NCBI RefSeq assembly: GCF_015709515.1
Contig: NZ_JADNQZ010000054.1
Coordinates: forward strand, 124,001 to 188,000
Origin: Methylocystis sp. H62
Lineage (GTDB): Bacteria; Pseudomonadota; Alphaproteobacteria; Rhizobiales; Beijerinckiaceae
Length of the DNA stretch: 64,000 bases
Direction of reading: 5' to 3'
Below the pieces are notes generated by a model. That model was given only the letters and a program-made list of their open reading frames with translations, had not been told where the DNA came from and did not search any database. Made by a program: the position numbers and the translations under genes. Below, piece after piece: positions 5,297-48,276 of the stretch (its first letter is position 1; each line of letters begins with the position of its first letter).

Positions 5297-6490
5297 TTAC
5301 ATCTTAAGCAGCGGATTGGCGCGATAGACCGCCTGCGCGGCCGCAGCGCCTGAACCCGGAGTCACGGGGATACCGACGTCACACATGGCCATCTCCGCGC
5401 CGCCAATGGCGCCGAGCAGCATCAGCTCGTTGAGGTCGCCGAGATGGCCGATGCGGAACACCTTGCCCGCGACTTCGGACAGACCGGCGCCGAGCGCGAG
5501 ATTGTAGCGCTTGTAGGCGATCTCGATCACCTTGGCGGCGTCAAAGCCCTCCGGCACGACGATTGCCGTGACGGTGTCAGAGTTCCACTTCGGCTCCTTG
5601 GCGCAGCACTTGAGGCCCCATGCGGAAACAGCCGCGCGGACGCCCTCGGCGAGATGATGGTGCCGCTTGTAGACCTGATCGAGGCCCTCTTCGAACAGGA
5701 CCGAGAGCGATTCCTTCAGGCCATAGAGCAGCGGCACGGAGGGCGTATAAGGGAAATAGCCGTTCGCGTTCTGGGCGATCATGTCCTGGAACTCGAAATA
5801 GGCGCGGCGCCCCTTGTTGCTCTTGCCGGCGGCGATCGCCTTCGGGCTCGCCGCCATCAGCAGCAGGCCGGCCGGCAGCATGAAGCCCTTCTGCGAGCCC
5901 GACACGATCACGTCGACGCCCCACTCGTCCATTTTGAACTCGAGCGACGCGACCGAGGACACGCCGTCGACGAAGAGCAGCGCCGGGTGCTTGGCGTTGT
6001 CCATCGCGCGGCGCACCGCGGCGATGTCGGAGGTGACGCCCGTCGCCGTTTCGTTATGCGTGGCGAGAACCGCCTTGATTTCGTGATTCTTGTCGGCCTT
6101 CAGCGTCTCTTCGATCAGCTCCGGATCATTGCCCGTGCCCCATTCGCGCTCCTGCACGACGACTTCCAGGCCCTGACGCTTACAAAGATCAATCCACAGA
6201 TGGGAGAACTGGCCGAAGCGCTGCGCCAGAACCTTGTCGCCGGGCGACAGCGTGTTGGTGATCGCGGCTTCCCAGCCGCCGGTGCCGGACGCCGGGAAAA
6301 TGAACGCATGGCCCTTGTCGGTGCCGAAGATCTTCTTCAGGCCGGGGAAGAGCGGCTTGACGAGATCGGGGAACGTCGGCGAGCGATGATCTTCGGACGC
6401 GACCGACATGGCGCGCACGATGCGGTCGGGCAGATTGGTCGGGCCCGGCACAAACAGGAAGTTCTTGCCGGGAATTCTGGAATTCAACAT
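5297..6490 (-). CDS. sgaA: Serine-glyoxylate aminotransferase
   Basis: The 397-residue class V PLP aminotransferase begins with the family motif FLFVPGPTNLPDRI. It contains FPASGTGGWEAA for cofactor phosphate binding, LLFVDGVSSVAS, and the Schiff-base lysine in VSGSQKGFMLPAG (about residue 196). It transfers the amino group of serine to glyoxylate, giving hydroxypyruvate and glycine. It lies between ftfL and hprA on the same strand. A good AGGAG lies before the ATG at 6490. Confidence 0.95.
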   Translation of the reverse strand: MLNSRIPGKNFLFVPGPTNLPDRIVRAMSVASEDHRSPTFPDLVKPLFPGLKKIFGTDKGHAFIFPASGTGGWEAAITNTLSPGDKVLAQRFGQFSHLWIDLCKRQGLEVVVQEREWGTGNDPELIEETLKADKNHEIKAVLATHNETATGVTSDIAAVRRAMDNAKHPALLFVDGVSSVASLEFKMDEWGVDVIVSGSQKGFMLPAGLLLMAASPKAIAAGKSNKGRRAYFEFQDMIAQNANGYFPYTPSVPLLYGLKESLSVLFEEGLDQVYKRHHHLAEGVRAAVSAWGLKCCAKEPKWNSDTVTAIVVPEGFDAAKVIEIAYKRYNLALGAGLSEVAGKVFRIGHLGDLNELMLLGAIGGAEMAMCDVGIPVTPGSGAAAAQAVYRANPLLKM

Positions 6491-40499: not shown

Positions 40500-41579
40500 G
40501 TGTCGAGCTCGGTCGCCTCGGAACTGGCCCGCCGCCTCGCGCAAGAGGCTGAGGCGGTCTGCCGCCGGTATTTATCGAACGGTCGTCGCTCGGGCGGCTA
40601 TTGGCTCGTCGGCGACATCAACAATACGCCGGGCCGCTCGCTTTTTGTGCGCCTGAATGGCAACGCATATGGAAGAACCGCCGCCGGCAAATGGGTGGAT
40701 GCGGCGACGGGCGAGCACGGCGATTTGCTCGACGTCATCCGCATCCGATGCAATTTGAGCAATTTCGGCGACGTGCTCGACGAGGCGCGGCGCTTGTTGA
40801 ACAGCCCGCGATGCCACCCAGCACCCATGTCGACAAACCCTACTTCGCTCTCTCCGACCGGCTCTTCCGAGTCGGCGCGCCGATTGTTCCATATGTCGTA
40901 CCCGATCGCGAGCACGCTGGCGGAAGCCTATCTCAGACATCGCGGCATCACGGTCTTTCTCGAAACAAGCGAGCTTCGCTTTCATCCACGCTGCTACTAC
41001 CGCCCCGATCGACACGCGCCGACGCAGACCTTTCCGGCGCTGATCGCCGCTATCGCCGACGCGTCGGGCGCTATCGTCGGCGTTCAGCGCACTTGGCTCG
41101 ATCCGTCTGGCAAGGACAAAGCCGCGATCGAAACGCCAAGGCGCGCCATGGGCCAGCTGCGCGGTCATGGCGTCAGGTTCGGATCCGTCGAGGACACTGC
41201 GGCGGCCGGTGAAGGCGTCGAGACCATGATGTCGCTTCGGTGTGCACTACCGCGCCTGCCTATGATCGCGGCGCTCTCCGCCAGCAATCTGGCGGCCCTG
41301 TCGCTCCCGCCGACTTTGCGCCGCCTCTACATCGCGCGCGACAATGACGCCGCCGGAGACGATGCGACGGACCAACTCGCGCAACGCGCTTCATCAGCCG
41401 GCATTGAGACGATCGTCCTGTCGCCGATGCTCGCCGACTTCAACGACGACCTCCGCCTTCTCGGTATCGCCGAACTTCTTGCGGCGCTGCGAACGCAGCT
41501 CGCTCCTGAAGATGTCGTTCGCTTCATCCCACGAATGTCAACGCACAGCGCGGTCGGTTGGCCGACGGTCCAAATCTGA
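40500..41579 (+). CDS. Toprim-domain protein (ICE/plasmid primase-like, DUF7146 type)
   Basis: A protein of about 359 residues. The N-terminal part resembles the zinc-less CHC2-like region of mobile-element primases (YWLVGDINNTPGRSLFVRLN, then GKWVDAATGEHGDLLDVI). The C-terminal part is a Toprim domain with AAGEGVETMMSLRCALP (catalytic Glu) and LYIARDNDAAGDDAT (DxD motif). It probably helps initiate DNA synthesis or processes DNA after transfer. The GTG start at 40500 has GGAGG eight bases upstream. A TTG five codons earlier is unlikely. Confidence 0.85.
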   Translation: MSSSVASELARRLAQEAEAVCRRYLSNGRRSGGYWLVGDINNTPGRSLFVRLNGNAYGRTAAGKWVDAATGEHGDLLDVIRIRCNLSNFGDVLDEARRLLNSPRCHPAPMSTNPTSLSPTGSSESARRLFHMSYPIASTLAEAYLRHRGITVFLETSELRFHPRCYYRPDRHAPTQTFPALIAAIADASGAIVGVQRTWLDPSGKDKAAIETPRRAMGQLRGHGVRFGSVEDTAAAGEGVETMMSLRCALPRLPMIAALSASNLAALSLPPTLRRLYIARDNDAAGDDATDQLAQRASSAGIETIVLSPMLADFNDDLRLLGIAELLAALRTQLAPEDVVRFIPRMSTHSAVGWPTVQI

Positions 41580-41868
41580 CGGCGCAATCGACGAATTGCT
41601 CGTGGCGATCCTGATCGCCGAAAGGGCCGCGCCTGCGGCCTTCAAAAGGGGTTGGTCCTGCGGCAAGCGATCCGGCGCCGCAACGGCGGACGGCAACTAT
41701 TTTCCGCCGCACCCTCAAGGGCGCTTTGCAGCGCGAAACAAAATAGCCGCCGCCCGCCATCCTCCGCTGCGCTACGGCCGCTGCGCGGTGCGCGCCGGCT
41801 CTTGCTTGCCGCTTCGGACGCCCATGAAGGCCGCGAAGGGCGCGGCCAATCCGGCAAAGAGCAACACC

Positions 41869-42807
41869 ATGACAGTCCATTCCGATGATTTGCGCTCGGC
41901 TTCGTCGCTCTCGACGTCCCCAACTGGGCGCGTTCTCACCGAGTTGCAGCTCTATGGCTTTCGTCCCTTCGAGGGCGAACCCGACCCTCGGCAATTGCCG
42001 GAAGCGCAGTCTATCGCCGGCGCGGTCGCGGACATCTTCGACGCGCTCGTCTCGACGTTGTCAGATACCCGTCTCGAACCGGATATCGAAGATCTGCTGT
42101 GGTCGACGGTCAATATCTTTCATCGCGCCGTGCTGCGGACCGAACGTGGGCTCGCCGACAATGAAGCCGCCCAAAAGCGCAGCCAGAGCGAACAAGACGG
42201 CTCCGAAATCCGTTCCGTGGAATTGGAGCGTCTGATCGCCGAAGGCGTCACCCTCATCGAGCGCCGCGACAGCATGGAGCTTTTCCGCGACGAGGCCGCC
42301 AATCAATTCGAGCGCCATACCGGCTCGGCCTGGCGACCCCGGTCGGGTTCCAGAGTCAATCACCGCGCTTTGACCTCCGCGATGATCGACAGCCGCGATT
42401 TTATCGCCGCCAAACGTCGCGCCGATTCCGACGCACTTCTTCCCCCCGGTCCAAAAATCGCCTTTACCGGCGGACTCGATTTCAACGATCATCGGGCAAT
42501 CTGGGATCGTCTCGACAAGGCTCTCGCGAAACATCCCGATATGGCGCTATTGCACGGCGGATCGCCTAGGGGCGCCGAACGCATCGCCGCCTGCTGGGCC
42601 GAGAACCGCGCGGTTCCGCAGATCATCTTCAAACCCGACTGGAAGCGTCACGCCAAGGCTGCGCCGTTCAAGCGAAACGACCACATGCTCGCGACGCTGC
42701 CAATCGGCGTCATCGTCTTTCCCGGGTCAGGCATCTCCGCCAATCTCGCCGATAAGGCGCGAATGCTCGGCATCCCGGTATGGAAATTCATCGATGGCGG
42801 CGCATGA
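41869..42807 (+). CDS. DUF2493 (SLOG/YspA-like) domain protein
   Basis: A protein of about 312 residues. After a variable N-terminus, residues from about 200 form a Rossmann-like SLOG domain: KIAFTGGLDFNDHRAIWDRL, then ALLHGGSPRGAERIAACWAE, IIFKPDWKRHAKAAPFKRND and VIVFPGSGISANL. SLOG domains bind nucleotide-derived ligands such as ADP-ribose or cyclic nucleotides. It is a standard backbone gene of this ICE family. The ATG at 41869 is chosen, with another at 41824. The 289 bp before it is GC-rich, hairpin-prone leader sequence. Confidence 0.82.
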   Translation: MTVHSDDLRSASSLSTSPTGRVLTELQLYGFRPFEGEPDPRQLPEAQSIAGAVADIFDALVSTLSDTRLEPDIEDLLWSTVNIFHRAVLRTERGLADNEAAQKRSQSEQDGSEIRSVELERLIAEGVTLIERRDSMELFRDEAANQFERHTGSAWRPRSGSRVNHRALTSAMIDSRDFIAAKRRADSDALLPPGPKIAFTGGLDFNDHRAIWDRLDKALAKHPDMALLHGGSPRGAERIAACWAENRAVPQIIFKPDWKRHAKAAPFKRNDHMLATLPIGVIVFPGSGISANLADKARMLGIPVWKFIDGGA

Positions 42808-42962: not shown

Positions 42963-45900
42963 TCAAGCGTTCCATTGAGCATCCCGCTCATCATCGTCGC
43001 GCTTAGCGGCTTCGACCTTCTTGCGAATTTGCAAGTGTGCTTCTCTCGCCCAGCGACGGAGAGAGCCGATAGGGTGGTCGAAGAGCGAACGCAGCGGCTC
43101 TTCATAGAGGGCATAGTAGGTCGTGAGAGAGCCAGTCCAGCCGAAGGTGTGCATGTTCTGTGTAAGGTAGCGGCGCACGTCATCGCGGTCGCCGAACTCG
43201 TTTAGAAGCCGGGTCATCAATGGATGGAACGTGCGGTCGGCGCCTTCGGCACGGGTTGTTAGAACTGGCAGAACACGCGCCAGAAATGCGGGGCCTGCGT
43301 CCGGATGGGCGTGAGCCCAAGCAAACAGAACGTCTTCCGGTAAGTGCAGGATCGCAGGCTGCTTTCTGTCGGCGAACGAAAAACCATCACCAAGCGCGTG
43401 TTCAATCAGCCAAGCCGCAGCTCGGTCCTGCACAATCGCATTCCCCAACGGCGGCCACACAGTCGAAGCGAAGTTCTTCATCATGATCGGCAACAGCGGT
43501 TTGATAAGGTCCGCTGCGTTGCCGTCGGGTTCGGATGCGAGGTACGACGCGAGCGTGCCCGCTGCCGCGCGCGCATCAGCGTCATCGTGCCCCTTCCTGA
43601 GTAGCCAACCGACAATGTGCTCGAAGTGGTGAGCATCCCTTTGCGAGCCCCGTCGCTTTGGCCGTTTGCTAACGTTCTGGACCGCCAGCATCACCTGTGG
43701 CCGGAGCTCATTCAGGCGATCAAGTTTCCCGTGAACGAACATTCCCATCACGTCGAGAGCGACCGAATAGCCAATCCCATTCATCGTGAGGAGTTGATCG
43801 AACAACGGCGCAGCTGAGGTCGCGTCGAGCTTTGCGAGCACACCGCCGAACCCCCAGTGTGACATTGCACCCGGAGGCAAGATGCCCGCTTTGAGACTTT
43901 CACAGACAAGACGAACATCATTCGCCGTGATGCCGATAAGTAGGCAGACGAACGGCAGCGTGTGCGCATAGACCCTCGAATGAACCGCTTCGCGCTTGTA
44001 TGCGGCGACCGCCTCCGGCTTTCGCGTTGCCAGGCCCGAGTAGTAGCCCGCGACCAATCCATAATTTCGGCTGTCATCGGCGACAGAAGCGTAGGCGCTT
44101 TTGATCGGCTCTTCCCATAACAGCGGATCATCCGCCATCTCGGCAATCGCTTTGCCGAACTCAACTGACATCCGCTGCTCGCCAACAGACAGGTCGGCTA
44201 GGCACCCGCGCAATGCCTCCGGCTGCGTCAGCATCTCGCGCGCTAGATCGCGCACGATTTCAACCTGTCGCTTTCCGCGCTCGTCGAATTCGAGATCCTC
44301 GTCGACCGGATAGTCCCAAGGCATCTCGGTGACAAGAAAGCGGACGCGGCTCGCCGCATCCAGCGGAGAAAGATCAGCAATGAGTTTGCGGACACGTTCT
44401 TCTTCGCCTTCCTTGAGCCCGCTCAGGTCGTATTGGAGGACATCGCCCAGGGCATTCAAAGCTGCTGGCCAATACGGATGAACCGCCCTGGTGCGCGCTA
44501 CCCAGCGTTCGATTTGTTCGATTTGGCCCCCGCCAATGTAGGAGCGAAACTGATGGGCAATGCCATTTCGTGCTCGGGCGCCGATCGCGTCGTCGCGCAG
44601 GCCAAGGTCAACCAGCCTATCAACACACGCGATGATGTAGTCCCAAGCGTCACTCCAATATTTTGGCTGCCACGGAATTAACTGCGGCCGACTGCCGTGC
44701 GTTCCAGGACCCATCATCCGCGCGTGCGAGTGCATGCTCGATGCTTCAAGTAATGCGTCCACCACGAGTGCCATTTGCATCGGATCGTTGGCTTGCAGCA
44801 ATTCATCAAGGAGTTGAAGGCGAGGCTTTGCGGGCGCTGTCGTGTTGGCGCCGAGTACCGGAAAGAGCGCCTTAAATTGCCCGACCGAGTTGTCACCCCA
44901 AGTTTCGTTTTCAGCGACGGCTAGCTTTAGCAGCAACAGCGCACCGCGCTCGAAGGTGTTCTCAATGAAGGAGATGTTTTCCAGCGCATGAACAAGCCCA
45001 CGACGCAAGTCGCCATCGATGCGCTTTAACTCTTCGACGGTGAGCGGGTTCAGTATCCGCTGCAGAAGTGTGACCACGGCCGCGGCGTCGATCTCAGACA
45101 TGGCGCTTAAAACGTCAGGGCTGCCCTTGCGATTGAGGGCTGTCAGCGACGCAAACGGTCCATCGAGACGCATCGCGTGGCGCGCGACCTGGGGACCGAT
45201 GTCTTGCGTGTTCAACAGCGTGAGCTGATTCGCCACGTTCTTGCGCAACCGTTCCGGCAAATCGCCTGCTAACACCTCGTCCCATCTGGCTTGGCCCCAT
45301 TGCCGCCACTGGCGTTCAGCAAGCTTAAGCGCAAGGGGCTTGGGCTGAAGGCTCGCTAGGCGTCCGTGTTGCTGCACGACGCCGCGTTCCTGAAGATCAG
45401 CCAAGGCGGCGCGCAGGTCTTCGGGAGATCGGTCTCGCGTGAACTTGGCGACGTGCGCAAGGTCGTCCAGTTCGTCGGTCGTGCCAAGGAGCCTAAAAGC
45501 GCCGAGCAACATGCCGGCATCTTTCAGCAAGGCGGGATCTAACGGTTTCCGCCCAAGCAGAATACGATCGATTAGTTCATCGTTTGTGGCGGCGGCAATG
45601 GGCATATCGTTCAGCCACGCCTGACCAAGCAAGGTTGCCATCTGCGGGAAACCGCGCGCGAACTTTAGGAGCCGGCGATGATCTTCGCTCGGCAAGTCGG
45701 GAGCGATCTGCTTGATCATCCCCTCCACGACGGCGTCGGCAGCCGGTTCAACCATCAACAGCTCGTCATCACCTTTCAACGACGGCGGCACTTCGTGATC
45801 GATCGTCACTAGCGAAATCCGGCTGCCGGTCCGCTTCACCATCCCGACCAGGTCATGGTGCGAATCCAAGGAGCAGCGGTCCACAACGACGATCGCCCGG

Positions 45901-46994
45901 AAGCCGGAATCGACGAGATTCTGAATGATGTTCTTAATAGCCACCGATCCTGCTTCAGATTCCACCGTATAGAGAACCAGATCGCAGAGCCGCGCGCCGG
46001 AAGTCTCTTCTTCGTCCGTAGGGCCGAGGGCTTCGTGCGTGAGCCGCGACTTGCCAACGCCCGAAAGGCCAACGACTCGAGCGACGCCTCTCGGCTTCGC
46101 TACAAGAGAGCGCAGCTTCTCGCGGAACGCTGGCAAGCGAGCATCTGAAATCCAGGGCGATGCGTCGTAGCGACCAGCCCAATGGGTCCAATCCTTAAGT
46201 GGTCCGACGAGTCCCGGCTGGGTCTGCTCCAGTACCCAGGCCGCAACGGGCGGCAAGGAATTCACCCAAGAGGCAATCTGGTCGGCATCGCGGAACTGGA
46301 CTTGGTCCGGACGAATCTTGAGTCCGGCCTTGGCAAGCGCCTCCCGTATGCGATCGGCCCGCGCCTTGACGAGTTTGTTTTCGTACGAATGGGCGCACGC
46401 CATAATGTAGCAGCCGCCCTGCGCTAGGGCGTCGCGCACCATCACCTTCACCTCGCCAGCCGGCGTCAACAGATCGTCGCCCGCTTCTTTGGGTGTGATT
46501 GGGCCGGCCTTCAGCTGAAACTGCGAGATGCGGTTCGGCAGGAACTTGGTTCGCTCGGGCTCGCCCTGCCATTCGATGCGCGCATCCTCTCCCCCGTCGG
46601 CAGCGGTGATGTTTGCCGCCACGTGGATTCCGTCCATGGGCAAGTCACCGCTGAAGGCCTCGCCGTCCAGCAGCCGCCGCGTTAGGAGAACCAGTTTTCG
46701 TGGACTCAACGCCGCGATGTGCCTGCCGGTCACCTCAAATAGCCGCGTGTCGTCCGATTCCATCGGTGCGACCTTTCCCCCGGACAACGTGATGATGGCG
46801 GAAGGCTTGACATCCAGCAGGCGCAACAAGTTCGCGGTCGCCGTCGTCGGCTTGATGGTGCCGCTCTCGTATTTCGTGAAGGCGCGGGGCCCACCACCCA
46901 AGAGCTCTCCCGCCTCGACCTGGGTCAGACCGATCTTCTCCCGGATACGCCGGATTTCTGGTGGCGAAAGTTCGCCCGAGGCTTTTAGTTCCAT
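42963..46994 (-). CDS. HTH - candidate PD-(D/E)XK nuclease - STAND NTPase protein (putative Avs-like defence)
   Basis: A 1343-residue protein. Residues 9-62 are an MqsA/YgiT-type helix-turn-helix (EIRRIREKIGLTQVEAGELL, then AFTKYESGTIKPTT). Residues about 120-250 fit a PD-(D/E)XK nuclease of Mrr type: D137 in GGEDARIEW and Q160-x-K162 in QFQLKAG. A P-loop NTPase follows with Walker A GLSGVGKS (309-316) and Walker B RAIVVVDRCS (about 366-375). The remaining ~900 residues are helical, like the sensor part of STAND proteins. It is opposite in strand to the ICE genes and sits in a variable slot between DUF2493 and DUF736. Two palindromic operators lie before its ATG. It probably senses a phage component and cleaves nucleic acid. 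The nuclease assignment is by motif only. Confidence 0.75.
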   Translation of the reverse strand: MELKASGELSPPEIRRIREKIGLTQVEAGELLGGGPRAFTKYESGTIKPTTATANLLRLLDVKPSAIITLSGGKVAPMESDDTRLFEVTGRHIAALSPRKLVLLTRRLLDGEAFSGDLPMDGIHVAANITAADGGEDARIEWQGEPERTKFLPNRISQFQLKAGPITPKEAGDDLLTPAGEVKVMVRDALAQGGCYIMACAHSYENKLVKARADRIREALAKAGLKIRPDQVQFRDADQIASWVNSLPPVAAWVLEQTQPGLVGPLKDWTHWAGRYDASPWISDARLPAFREKLRSLVAKPRGVARVVGLSGVGKSRLTHEALGPTDEEETSGARLCDLVLYTVESEAGSVAIKNIIQNLVDSGFRAIVVVDRCSLDSHHDLVGMVKRTGSRISLVTIDHEVPPSLKGDDELLMVEPAADAVVEGMIKQIAPDLPSEDHRRLLKFARGFPQMATLLGQAWLNDMPIAAATNDELIDRILLGRKPLDPALLKDAGMLLGAFRLLGTTDELDDLAHVAKFTRDRSPEDLRAALADLQERGVVQQHGRLASLQPKPLALKLAERQWRQWGQARWDEVLAGDLPERLRKNVANQLTLLNTQDIGPQVARHAMRLDGPFASLTALNRKGSPDVLSAMSEIDAAAVVTLLQRILNPLTVEELKRIDGDLRRGLVHALENISFIENTFERGALLLLKLAVAENETWGDNSVGQFKALFPVLGANTTAPAKPRLQLLDELLQANDPMQMALVVDALLEASSMHSHARMMGPGTHGSRPQLIPWQPKYWSDAWDYIIACVDRLVDLGLRDDAIGARARNGIAHQFRSYIGGGQIEQIERWVARTRAVHPYWPAALNALGDVLQYDLSGLKEGEEERVRKLIADLSPLDAASRVRFLVTEMPWDYPVDEDLEFDERGKRQVEIVRDLAREMLTQPEALRGCLADLSVGEQRMSVEFGKAIAEMADDPLLWEEPIKSAYASVADDSRNYGLVAGYYSGLATRKPEAVAAYKREAVHSRVYAHTLPFVCLLIGITANDVRLVCESLKAGILPPGAMSHWGFGGVLAKLDATSAAPLFDQLLTMNGIGYSVALDVMGMFVHGKLDRLNELRPQVMLAVQNVSKRPKRRGSQRDAHHFEHIVGWLLRKGHDDADARAAAGTLASYLASEPDGNAADLIKPLLPIMMKNFASTVWPPLGNAIVQDRAAAWLIEHALGDGFSFADRKQPAILHLPEDVLFAWAHAHPDAGPAFLARVLPVLTTRAEGADRTFHPLMTRLLNEFGDRDDVRRYLTQNMHTFGWTGSLTTYYALYEEPLRSLFDHPIGSLRRWAREAHLQIRKKVEAAKRDDDERDAQWNA

Positions 46995-47002
46995 GCAACA
47001 CC

Positions 47003-47039
47003 ACCATGGTCACTTTAATGCGCTTTACACCATTATGGT
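47003..47039 (-). promoter_or_regulatory. Palindromic operators upstream of the HTH-STAND gene
   Basis: ACCATGGT (47003-47010) and ACCATTATGGT (47029-47039) are palindromes with centres about 27.5 bp apart, 8-45 bp before the start codon. Each is followed on the plus strand by CAC(C). Palindromes at this place suit autoregulation by the protein's own MqsA-type HTH, since MqsA represses its own promoter by binding palindromes. Confidence 0.55.
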
Positions 47040-47046
47040 CACCTAA

Positions 47047-47952
47047 TGGATTTTATCGCCGATCGCAATGATTTTTTAGGGCGTGTCACGCCGTCGAAGC
47101 CGAGAAACTCTCGTTGGCGCTACAGATCGCTTGTCGGAAGCATAAGCGGCGGCTTGCGCAGGTCTGCTCCGCTTCCGTCGCCAGAGCCGCCCGTGGACAG
47201 TTTGTCCGAAGGTGGGTTGGCGGCCACCGCACTCGCGCCCGAACCAATGTCCGTTCATGGCGCTAAGCGGAAATGCACTACTGTGGCGATTCCTGAGCGG
47301 TTTCTTTGTCCGGCGTGCCGGCTTCGATTATCGTAGCGGTGGCGCTGCGGCCGATTGGTGTGTCAAGGAAACCCGCGGATGCTCAGCCTTATATTTCATC
47401 AACGTCATCGCATTCGCTATTCGGCGTGGCTTCTGTTCAATCTCACGGTTCGTGCGCGTACCAACCGCTGGCGGGTCGCTGGGCGCTTGTAGGCACGTTG
47501 ACGGACCGATTAGACTCGCCGGCCGCATTTTCCTTCTTCTAGGCAGATATGTTCGAAGCGACCTATCCCTGACGCCGCCGCCTTTTCGTGCGCTGCTACT
47601 TCTTTTCCCTCGCTTTGAATTCTGCCGGTCTTGTGCTTTTTCCCTCTCGTTGGCGAAGTCATTCATAGAGGTTGCTGTCTGGCCAGCTACGACCATCACG
47701 ACCTCTCTTATGGCTTCATCTGGCCGAAGACCGGCTCCGCCTCGATCGCCATAGCCGCAACAGCATAGGCGCAACCTTCTTCCCCTGACGCCTGCGGCGT
47801 CATTCCTCGCGAAGCAAGAAAGCCGCGCCCATGCCGTCCTCCGCTTCGCTGCGGCCCTGGGGGTGCGTCGACGAATCGCCTTCGGCTGCGAAGCGCCATC
47901 GAGGCCGCGATGGTCGCGGGCTCGAAGACAGCAGAACCTAAGGAGACTTACA
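47047..47952. other. Stretch without a recognised gene between STAND gene and DUF736 gene
   Basis: About 900 bases. Open frames exist on both strands, but their products are Arg/Ser/Pro-rich, start poorly and match no family. The part from 47047 to about 47270 reads like the decayed end of a gene. From 47780 on it is GC-rich leader sequence of the DUF736 gene with hairpins, including GACGCC TGC GGCGTC at 47789-47803. It may be the far edge of the cargo insertion. Confidence 0.5.
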
Positions 47953-48276
47953 ATGGCGAACATCGGCTCTTTCAAGAAGTCCGGCAATGAATTCCTCGGC
48001 GAAATCGTGACGCTCAGCGTCCAGGCCAAAGGCGTCCGCATCGTTCCGGAAGCCAACCGTTCTAACGATAACGCCCCGAGCCACCGGGTTTTCGTCAGAC
48101 GCGCGGAAATCGGCGCCGCCTGGTCCAAGCGCTCGAACGAGGGTCGCGACTATCTCTCGGTCAAGCTCGACGATCCGAGCTTCACGGCTCCGATTTACGC
48201 CAATCTCTTCGACGACGAGGATGGCGACGGCCACTCGCTGATCTGGTCGCGGGGGCGGAAGCCGAATGGAGACTGA
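47953..48276 (+). CDS. DUF736-family protein
   Basis: A 107-residue protein with the full DUF736 pattern: ANIGSFKKSGNEFLGEIVTL, WSKRSNEGRDYLSVKLDDP and FTAPIYANLFDDE. The family is found almost only on conjugative elements and plasmids of alphaproteobacteria. Its function is unknown, though a single-strand-DNA or DNA-processing role is often supposed. AAGGAG precedes the ATG. It converges with the QseC-like gene. Confidence 0.92.
   Translation: MANIGSFKKSGNEFLGEIVTLSVQAKGVRIVPEANRSNDNAPSHRVFVRRAEIGAAWSKRSNEGRDYLSVKLDDPSFTAPIYANLFDDEDGDGHSLIWSRGRKPNGD

Follow-up and report, generated by a model that had tools for sequence, protein, structure and literature searches.

The protein encoded on the reverse strand at positions 42963-46994 of the window (the whole stretch of 64,000 nucleotides of Methylocystis sp. 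H62 analysed here) is probably an NLR-like antiphage receptor of the PD-lambda-4A type, which has captured an MqsA DNA-binding domain and represses its own promoter with it. This chain of 1343 residues begins with an MqsA-type helix-turn-helix (HTH), followed by a PD-(D/E)XK-like nuclease domain, then by a STAND ATPase and lastly by a C-terminal region. The family and the domains are near certain. Autorepression is likely, judged from the upstream sequences of this gene and its relatives; a nuclease-based abortive defence is proposed by analogy with Avs1-4, and a derepression linked to infection would be a guess. The antitoxin-type HTH and its operator are the new element, and the rest of the chain falls within a defence family already known. 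The domains, the family, an operator matching that of MqsRA, the selection pattern of the HTH codons and the defence or mobile context of relatives were all computed.

A PADLOC scan aligned residues 85-1338 with positions 3-1275 of the 1283 of the PD-Lambda-4_A profile (E 3.1e-81). Only two PD-Lambda-4_A models were returned, and none of the Avs models matched at E values up to 10. The preliminary description had announced a candidate new defence system; minus its HTH, the protein is an end-to-end PD-Lambda-4_A homologue, by which a wholly new system is ruled out. The comparison with Avs proteins made there holds for the layout, nuclease then STAND, and fails for the sequence, as no Avs model was found in PADLOC. 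The 1343-residue open reading frame (ORF) had been delimited exactly; a spurious long ORF was rejected on account of relatives at 78% and 54% identity and a clear codon-position signal.

According to the available text of Vassallo et al. 2022 (PMC9519451), the E. coli systems were named after the phage used for selection, and each of 21 systems was confirmed to cut the plating of its selecting phage. PD-lambda-4 is taken here as phage-validated because the PADLOC name points to that study. A P-loop NTPase domain is listed for PD-lambda-4 in the accessible part of a review (PMC10952713). At an E. coli locus (L023), the A protein scores 2525 bits against PD-Lambda-4_A, and after its gene comes a B gene broken into two frames that overlap. 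The window protein is 19% identical to this A protein and has the same layout of nuclease-like domain, P-loop and C-terminal region, and the E. coli locus likewise adjoins mobility genes (integrase and recombinase). It differs by an additional N-terminal part of 84 residues with the MqsA-type HTH, by its candidate operator and by the number of genes: the E. coli system has two, whereas no PD-Lambda-4_B gene (PDLC03992) was found in the genome of the window in a search with 14 controls, among which E. coli gave a match. In another E. coli strain, GPEC389 (L024, 6001-11613), an AbiP2-type reverse transcriptase directly follows PD-Lambda-4_A, at the place of the B gene in L023.

PD-Lambda-4_A turned up in 9 genomes of the class (289 searched) and in 10 of the phylum (398 searched), two draws that both include the window's own genome and overlap in some others. 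With the protein as tblastn query, 84 of 72,556 plasmid records matched, 12 of them at a coverage of at least 80%. A relative is encoded at 12 loci in viral contigs; a scan of viral contigs with the single protein as query gave no match. One of 50,697 phage records matched, over residues 7-70 only. Relatives also occur in halophilic archaea and cyanobacteria. Their neighbours include pAgo and CBASS genes (L026), Dnd genes (L021), a SIR2 gene (L020) and PD-T4-5/AbiD-like and ABC-3C genes (L017); with the plasmid and viral-contig copies, this is the setting in defence islands and mobile elements that had been anticipated.

Two alignment sets, of 12 and 13 sequences (ten of the latter from viral contigs), shared the window protein and its relatives L001 and L002. 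In the first, D133, G134, G135, D137, F159, Q160, K162 and the P-loop residues were invariant (12/12); in the second, D133, G135, D137, Q160 and K162 were identical (13/13). G309, S311, G312, G314, K315, R317 and D372 were identical in both. Residues 80-285 were modelled with AlphaFold2 (pLDDT 83.3); the core of the model runs alpha-beta-beta-beta-alpha-beta, and in it D137 lies ahead of the second core strand and Q160-x-K162 closes the third. An aspartate before the second strand and a Q-x-K at the end of the third is the PD-(D/E)XK arrangement. In a structural comparison the best 22 rows were all nucleases, among them restriction enzymes and CRISPR-ancillary nucleases (Can2/Card1/Cdn1, FokI, R.BspD6I, EcoT38I, MspJI, AspBHI, LmuA, BstEII and EcoO109I), with Z from 8.2 to 5.6, where values below 8 may reflect merely a common arrangement; row 23 was an RNA polymerase subunit. 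These 22 matches we take to be PD-(D/E)XK enzymes. DUF4365 gave a weak Pfam match over the nuclease region of a relative, L039 (E 0.0065, below the cut-off). Judged by the model and the conserved residues, 85-260 appear to combine a PD-(D/E)XK fold with the D...(E/Q)xK residues.

The ATPase part was modelled within residues 1-620 (mean pLDDT 72.6), of which 261-620 match STAND/NLR ATPases. The first six Foldseek rows included Avs4 and Avs3 (ranks 4 and 6; E about 1e-7, TM-scores under 0.3) and the archaeal STAND protein 6mfv. The other structural comparison gave the NB-ARC of NRC1 (Z 13.6, 271 aligned, root mean square deviation 7.1), Apaf-1 (Z 13.3, deviation 7.7) and 6mfv (Z 11.2, deviation 8.8). 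This part is predicted to have an NB-ARC/NACHT-like fold with a P-loop, as in STAND proteins. The preliminary description was borne out here in its nuclease motif (D137, Q160-x-K162), its P-loop (Walker A 309-316, Walker B about 366-375), a PD-(D/E)XK fold near residues 110-260, a STAND ATPase at 290-500 and the fusion of the two.

The HTH was the sole Pfam match above cut-off in the protein (PF15731, residues 10-65, E 1.2e-12) and was also found by TIGR03830 of NCBIfam (residues 4-67, E 1.7e-18, above cut-off) and PDB 3fmy (E 3.2e-10); it had first been placed at residues 9-62. Only positions 70-125 of the 131 of the MqsA profile are matched, so the protein lacks the N-terminal, toxin-side half of MqsA. 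The window and the stretches L001, L002 and L117 yielded no MqsR gene, nor did a protein search of the four genomes with the fusion (the control genome G881 gave a match). The HTH thus appears to have been separated from its toxin with its site kept.

Most relatives start at about residue 85, the absence of an HTH being judged by length and eye. The MqsA-type HTH is present in four proteins: that of the window, those of Bradyrhizobium ivorense (L001, 78% identity to the window protein) and a proteobacterial metagenome-assembled genome (L002, 54%), and that of genome G045 (L011/L117), whose sequence is interrupted by Ns. The same domain order, for which a search had been advised, therefore recurs in three other genomes. 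In a quick tree of 34 rows including the window, with the HTH excluded from the alignment and the G045 row 43% filled, the four carriers formed a single clade (SH-aLRT 100). Among the matches listed in a search of 397 genomes of the same taxonomic order, HTH and core occurred in one match only in the window's own genome, and 27 rows matched the HTH alone; the 11 of these with loci are MqsA-like proteins. Defence genes surround both HTH-bearing relatives looked at (two of the three others): SIR2-like, LmuB-like, Mrr_cat and GmrSD genes at L001, and MkoA/MkoB, PycC-like, SoFic and methyltransferase genes at L002.

Compared with L001, identity is 74% in the C-terminal region and 84-86% in the HTH, nuclease and STAND parts. 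Over HTH residues 8-66, amino acid identity is 86%, with differences at 10% of first, 7% of second and 51% of third codon positions, in a plain count as distinct from a formal rate test. The HTH codons look to be under purifying selection by this comparison. Translation from Met78 could give a shorter second product that lacks the HTH; the window protein and L001 share this Met, L002 has another residue there, and by eye no Shine-Dalgarno-like stretch was seen ahead of it.

The pattern ACCATNNTGGT lies ahead of the start codon in all four HTH-fused genes, within 50 bp, and in the stretches searched around them it was found only at those start-proximal places. The 64 kb of the window hold three matches with both strands counted, at two places only, against 0.06 expected. 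L001 (20 kb) also has three matches at two places only (7931 and 7961; start 7980), L002 has one place only (7927; start 7950), as does L117 (6004-6014; start at 5969). Stand-alone MqsA-type loci provide a better test of the operator, and 11 were read, out of the 27 HTH-only rows. An MqsR-like ORF lies upstream in nine of them by eye, and both toxins tested were MqsR. In six of the 11 (L123-L128), from the same order, the exact site occurs 11-27 bp upstream of the toxin start, which in L125 and L127 was chosen to line up with the other toxins; a chance match within 1200 nt is expected at about 0.03 or less per locus. In L075 (genome G436, of the same family as the window's genome), ACCATCATGGT lies well upstream, farther than in L123-L128, and the MqsA-like antitoxin frame extends about 60 residues beyond those of its relatives.

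E. coli MqsA binds 5'-AACCT(N)3AGGTT-3', as given in the consulted part of PMC4894380. The window protein has an HTH of the MqsA family and, by sequence, a palindrome in common with MqsRA operons of the same order; it differs from MqsRA in having neither the N-terminal half of MqsA nor an MqsR gene that could be found. Since the same palindrome stands at the fused genes and at MqsRA operons, the fused domain probably continues to recognise the MqsA operator and acts as a repressor of its own gene, the MqsR toxin having been lost. The suggestion that the N-terminal domain may repress its own gene has in this way gained a conserved operator candidate and become likely.

Several observations weigh against this interpretation. 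Structural matches to the nuclease fold are modest (Z at most 8.2; lowest Foldseek E 0.024, with no Foldseek match under 0.001 for the nuclease model), and the HTH part of the AlphaFold2 model, from a shallow alignment, is mostly under pLDDT 50. As the B gene was not found in the genome, the protein may act unlike the E. coli system. One relative (L018) is flanked by metabolic genes, without defence neighbours, and another (L022) by plasmid genes. None of 100 shuffles of the window reached three matches and 3 of 100 shuffles of L002 had one, which makes the single L002 site weak alone; because the pattern was picked after viewing the upstream sequences, these shuffles overstate its strength. 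Four of the 11 MqsA-type loci (L071, L077, L079 and L129) are without the site in 1200 nt, although an MqsR-like ORF is present in two of these four. A single genus accounts for five of all 11 loci, and for three among the six that have the site. Each of the 11 genomes holds between 32 and 124 matches to the pattern, both strands counted, and only 2 to 9 to its reversed control (27 against 2 in the window's own genome), so the pattern is a common word in these genomes. Promoter scans found no sigma-70-like promoter beside the operators.

Two further members of the family carry unrelated HTHs. On a viral contig (IMGVR_UViG_3300009553_000810; L039, 5730-9786), a LexA DNA-binding domain (PF01726, 2e-13) is fused to the PD-Lambda-4_A core, and a GAAC-N4-GTTC box, GAACATTTGTTC, lies 26-37 bp ahead of the start; the box is weak alone, as 42 of 200 shuffles have one. 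We assume it to be of the LexA type, and fusion and box together suggest an SOS-type control. No second LexA fusion was found in the viral contigs, where L039 itself was the only one, nor among the matches listed from 398 genomes. In genome G496 (L043/L119; 6787-12653 in L119), a protein of 1573 residues consists of a Cro/C1-type HTH, about 250 further, unassigned residues and the PD-Lambda-4_A core. The start of this fusion gene overlaps the stop of hipA, so that an antitoxin-like domain is fused to the receptor with the toxin-like kinase gene still adjacent; no convincing palindrome was seen ahead of the gene. Both fusions are single examples, in other parts of the tree than the MqsA-type clade. 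With unrelated HTHs in separate parts of the tree, an HTH seems to have been captured independently at least three times. On the Rhizobium leguminosarum plasmid pPR4 (L019, 3819-7937), a 1372-residue protein annotated as 'helix-turn-helix transcriptional regulator' is encoded directly upstream of a PD-Lambda-4_A gene. It has a weak PD-Lambda-4_A match at 245-288 and no Walker A obvious by eye; relatives occur in 176 plasmid records, and 12 of the 15 matches listed extend into the HTH. This protein may represent another HTH-fused, degenerate receptor family.

In the resting state, HTH dimers on the two palindromes upstream of the start codon would hold the level of the receptor low, the fused HTH doing the work of the separate repressor on which some other toxic defence operons depend. 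Upon infection, the C-terminal region would recognise a phage product, after which the STAND ATPase would exchange its nucleotide and oligomerise. The PD-(D/E)XK domains, thus assembled, would cleave DNA, and death or arrest of the infected cell would follow. Sensing, oligomerisation, DNA cutting and the abortive outcome are modelled on Avs and NLR precedents; repression, and its loss when the protein is depleted or oligomerises, would follow toxin-antitoxin (TA) precedents. A more daring version, possible though we rather doubt it, makes the promoter-bound dimer itself the resting sensor of an operator-tethered NLR. Oligomerisation upon infection would then arm the nuclease and strip the HTH off the promoter at once, boosting synthesis, in a design with at least three origins. 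As the receptor would read the MqsA operator, receptor and resident MqsRA operons may in that version repress each other.

Other roles for the HTH can be conceived. STAND proteins with an HTH are a known regulator layout, and the protein could be a large transcription regulator of the MalT/AfsR sort, with the HTH acting on other genes and a non-catalytic nuclease-like domain. The maltose-system regulator 8bob_C is indeed among the matches of the ATPase part (Z 11.3), and ACCATNNTGGT occurs at 22 places in the whole genome. Such a role is very improbable, since D133, D137, Q160 and K162 are invariant (12/12 and 13/13) in sequences mostly without a recognised HTH, and the sites in the window lie only ahead of its own gene, as the sole pair less than 1 kb apart in the genome. 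We hold it equally improbable that the HTH serves targeting or sensing, by guiding the nuclease to phage or rival-element DNA bearing the palindrome or by guarding resident MqsRA operators. Nuclease and DNA-binding domains do share one chain, and the fused domain appears to share the MqsRA operator; but all four fused genes have the site ahead of their own start, as expected of an autorepressor, a site common in 11 of 11 genomes (32-124 matches each) is a poor mark of self or non-self, and a nuclease sent to the palindrome would cut its own promoter.

Slightly less remote, though still unlikely, is a defence protein as proposed here whose HTH is a relic that regulates little. The lack of a promoter-like match near the sites and of an MqsR partner in any of the four fusion genomes (the positive control gave a match) would fit a relic. 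The codon-position pattern over residues 8-66 speaks against it, as does the operator kept in four of four genes, one of them from a relative only 54% identical.

The gene lies between two backbone genes of a mobile element, which encode DUF2493 and DUF736 proteins (Table 1). Pfam matches agree with the original placement: the gene is on the reverse strand and both flanks are on the forward strand. Further backbone genes on the forward strand encode a Toprim/DUF7146 protein, an RPA replication initiator, an SLT transglycosylase, a ParB-like protein (below cut-off) and a DUF3363 protein with a relaxase match below cut-off. About 0.8 kb (47046-47860) separates the operators from DUF736; this part gave no Pfam match in the ORFs tested and may hold remnants of earlier cargo. 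The interval was compared in 20 homologous stretches from 19 genomes, hand-picked from the matches listed. The distance from DUF2493 to DUF736 is 0.65-2.3 kb in 11 of the 20; L090 is ambiguous, at about 1 kb. The window's own genome has a second copy of the region (L092; G000 C53:167236-180600), where the distance is 5.2 kb and a chromate transporter (PF02417) on the opposite strand is the cargo; in L102 it is 10.6 kb. L093, L094, L096 and L106 have only a weaker DUF736 match 7-8 kb off, and the stretches of L091 and L104 contain none. The interval has the look of a spot for cargo in a conjugative-type element; the cargo position claimed at the outset agrees with this variation of the gap. On a Sphingomonas conjugative plasmid (L022), another PD-Lambda-4_A gene likewise follows a DUF2493 gene.

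Table 1. Coordinates in the window of the receptor gene, its domains, candidate operators and flanking genes.
Feature	Position	Strand	Basis
HTH - PD-(D/E)XK-like nuclease - STAND ATPase - C-terminal region, single protein of 1343 residues	42963..46994	-	ORF exact, ATG start
MqsA-type helix-turn-helix, residues 10-65	46800..46967	-	PF15731, TIGR03830, PDB 3fmy; codon pattern suggesting purifying selection
Linker, residues 66-84	46743..46799	-	Residues 67-84 with 83% amino acid identity to L001
PD-(D/E)XK-like nuclease domain, residues 85-260	46215..46742	-	D133, D137, Q160, K162 invariant
STAND ATPase, residues 290-560	45315..46127	-	Walker A 309-316, Walker B D372
C-terminal region, residues 561-1343, presumed sensor	42966..45314	-	Within PADLOC profile match
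Start-proximal operator candidate, ACCATGGTGGT	47000..47010	-	Pattern search
Start-distal operator candidate, ACCATAATGGT, perfect palindrome around one base	47029..47039	-	Pattern search
DUF2493/YAcAr (SLOG) backbone gene, left flank of the cargo spot	41344..42807	+	PF10686 5.1e-30
DUF736 backbone gene, right flank (domain from ATG at 47953)	47863..48276	+	PF05284 4.3e-35

Avs1-Avs4 share with the window protein the order of N-terminal nuclease, STAND ATPase and long C-terminal region, and differ in that no Avs model of PADLOC matches its sequence. We know of no Avs design with a DNA-binding repressor domain. The nucleases of Avs1-4 cut phage and host genomes, according to the available part of PMC12931631. 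In Caulobacter, as described in the accessible text of PMC13236601, overproduction of the NLR-like LypABC is toxic, and an HTH repressor encoded apart from it, CdxB, keeps it in check. That system has a separate repressor gene and peptidase effectors, whereas in the window HTH and nuclease-like domain form one chain; it shows why control of such receptors would be needed. In a search of open-licence PMC text, with figures and supplements outside its range, none of the papers listed describes an HTH-fused PD-lambda-4 or Avs-like protein in its title or at the beginning of its abstract, and no such description stands in the available parts of PMC13092281 and PMC10853773.

Silencing matters most right after a mobile element enters a new cell. 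To our knowledge, the silencing of cell-killing defence receptors is known mostly through separate repressor genes. With a repressor inside the receptor, the level and activation state of the receptor could feed directly into its own transcription, an idea that is readily testable because the predicted operator is concrete. If the operator-tethered version were true, a defence receptor would be wired into the TA network. If autorepression is true, the DNA-binding domain of an antitoxin has been reused to control an NLR-like receptor and the toxin has been discarded.

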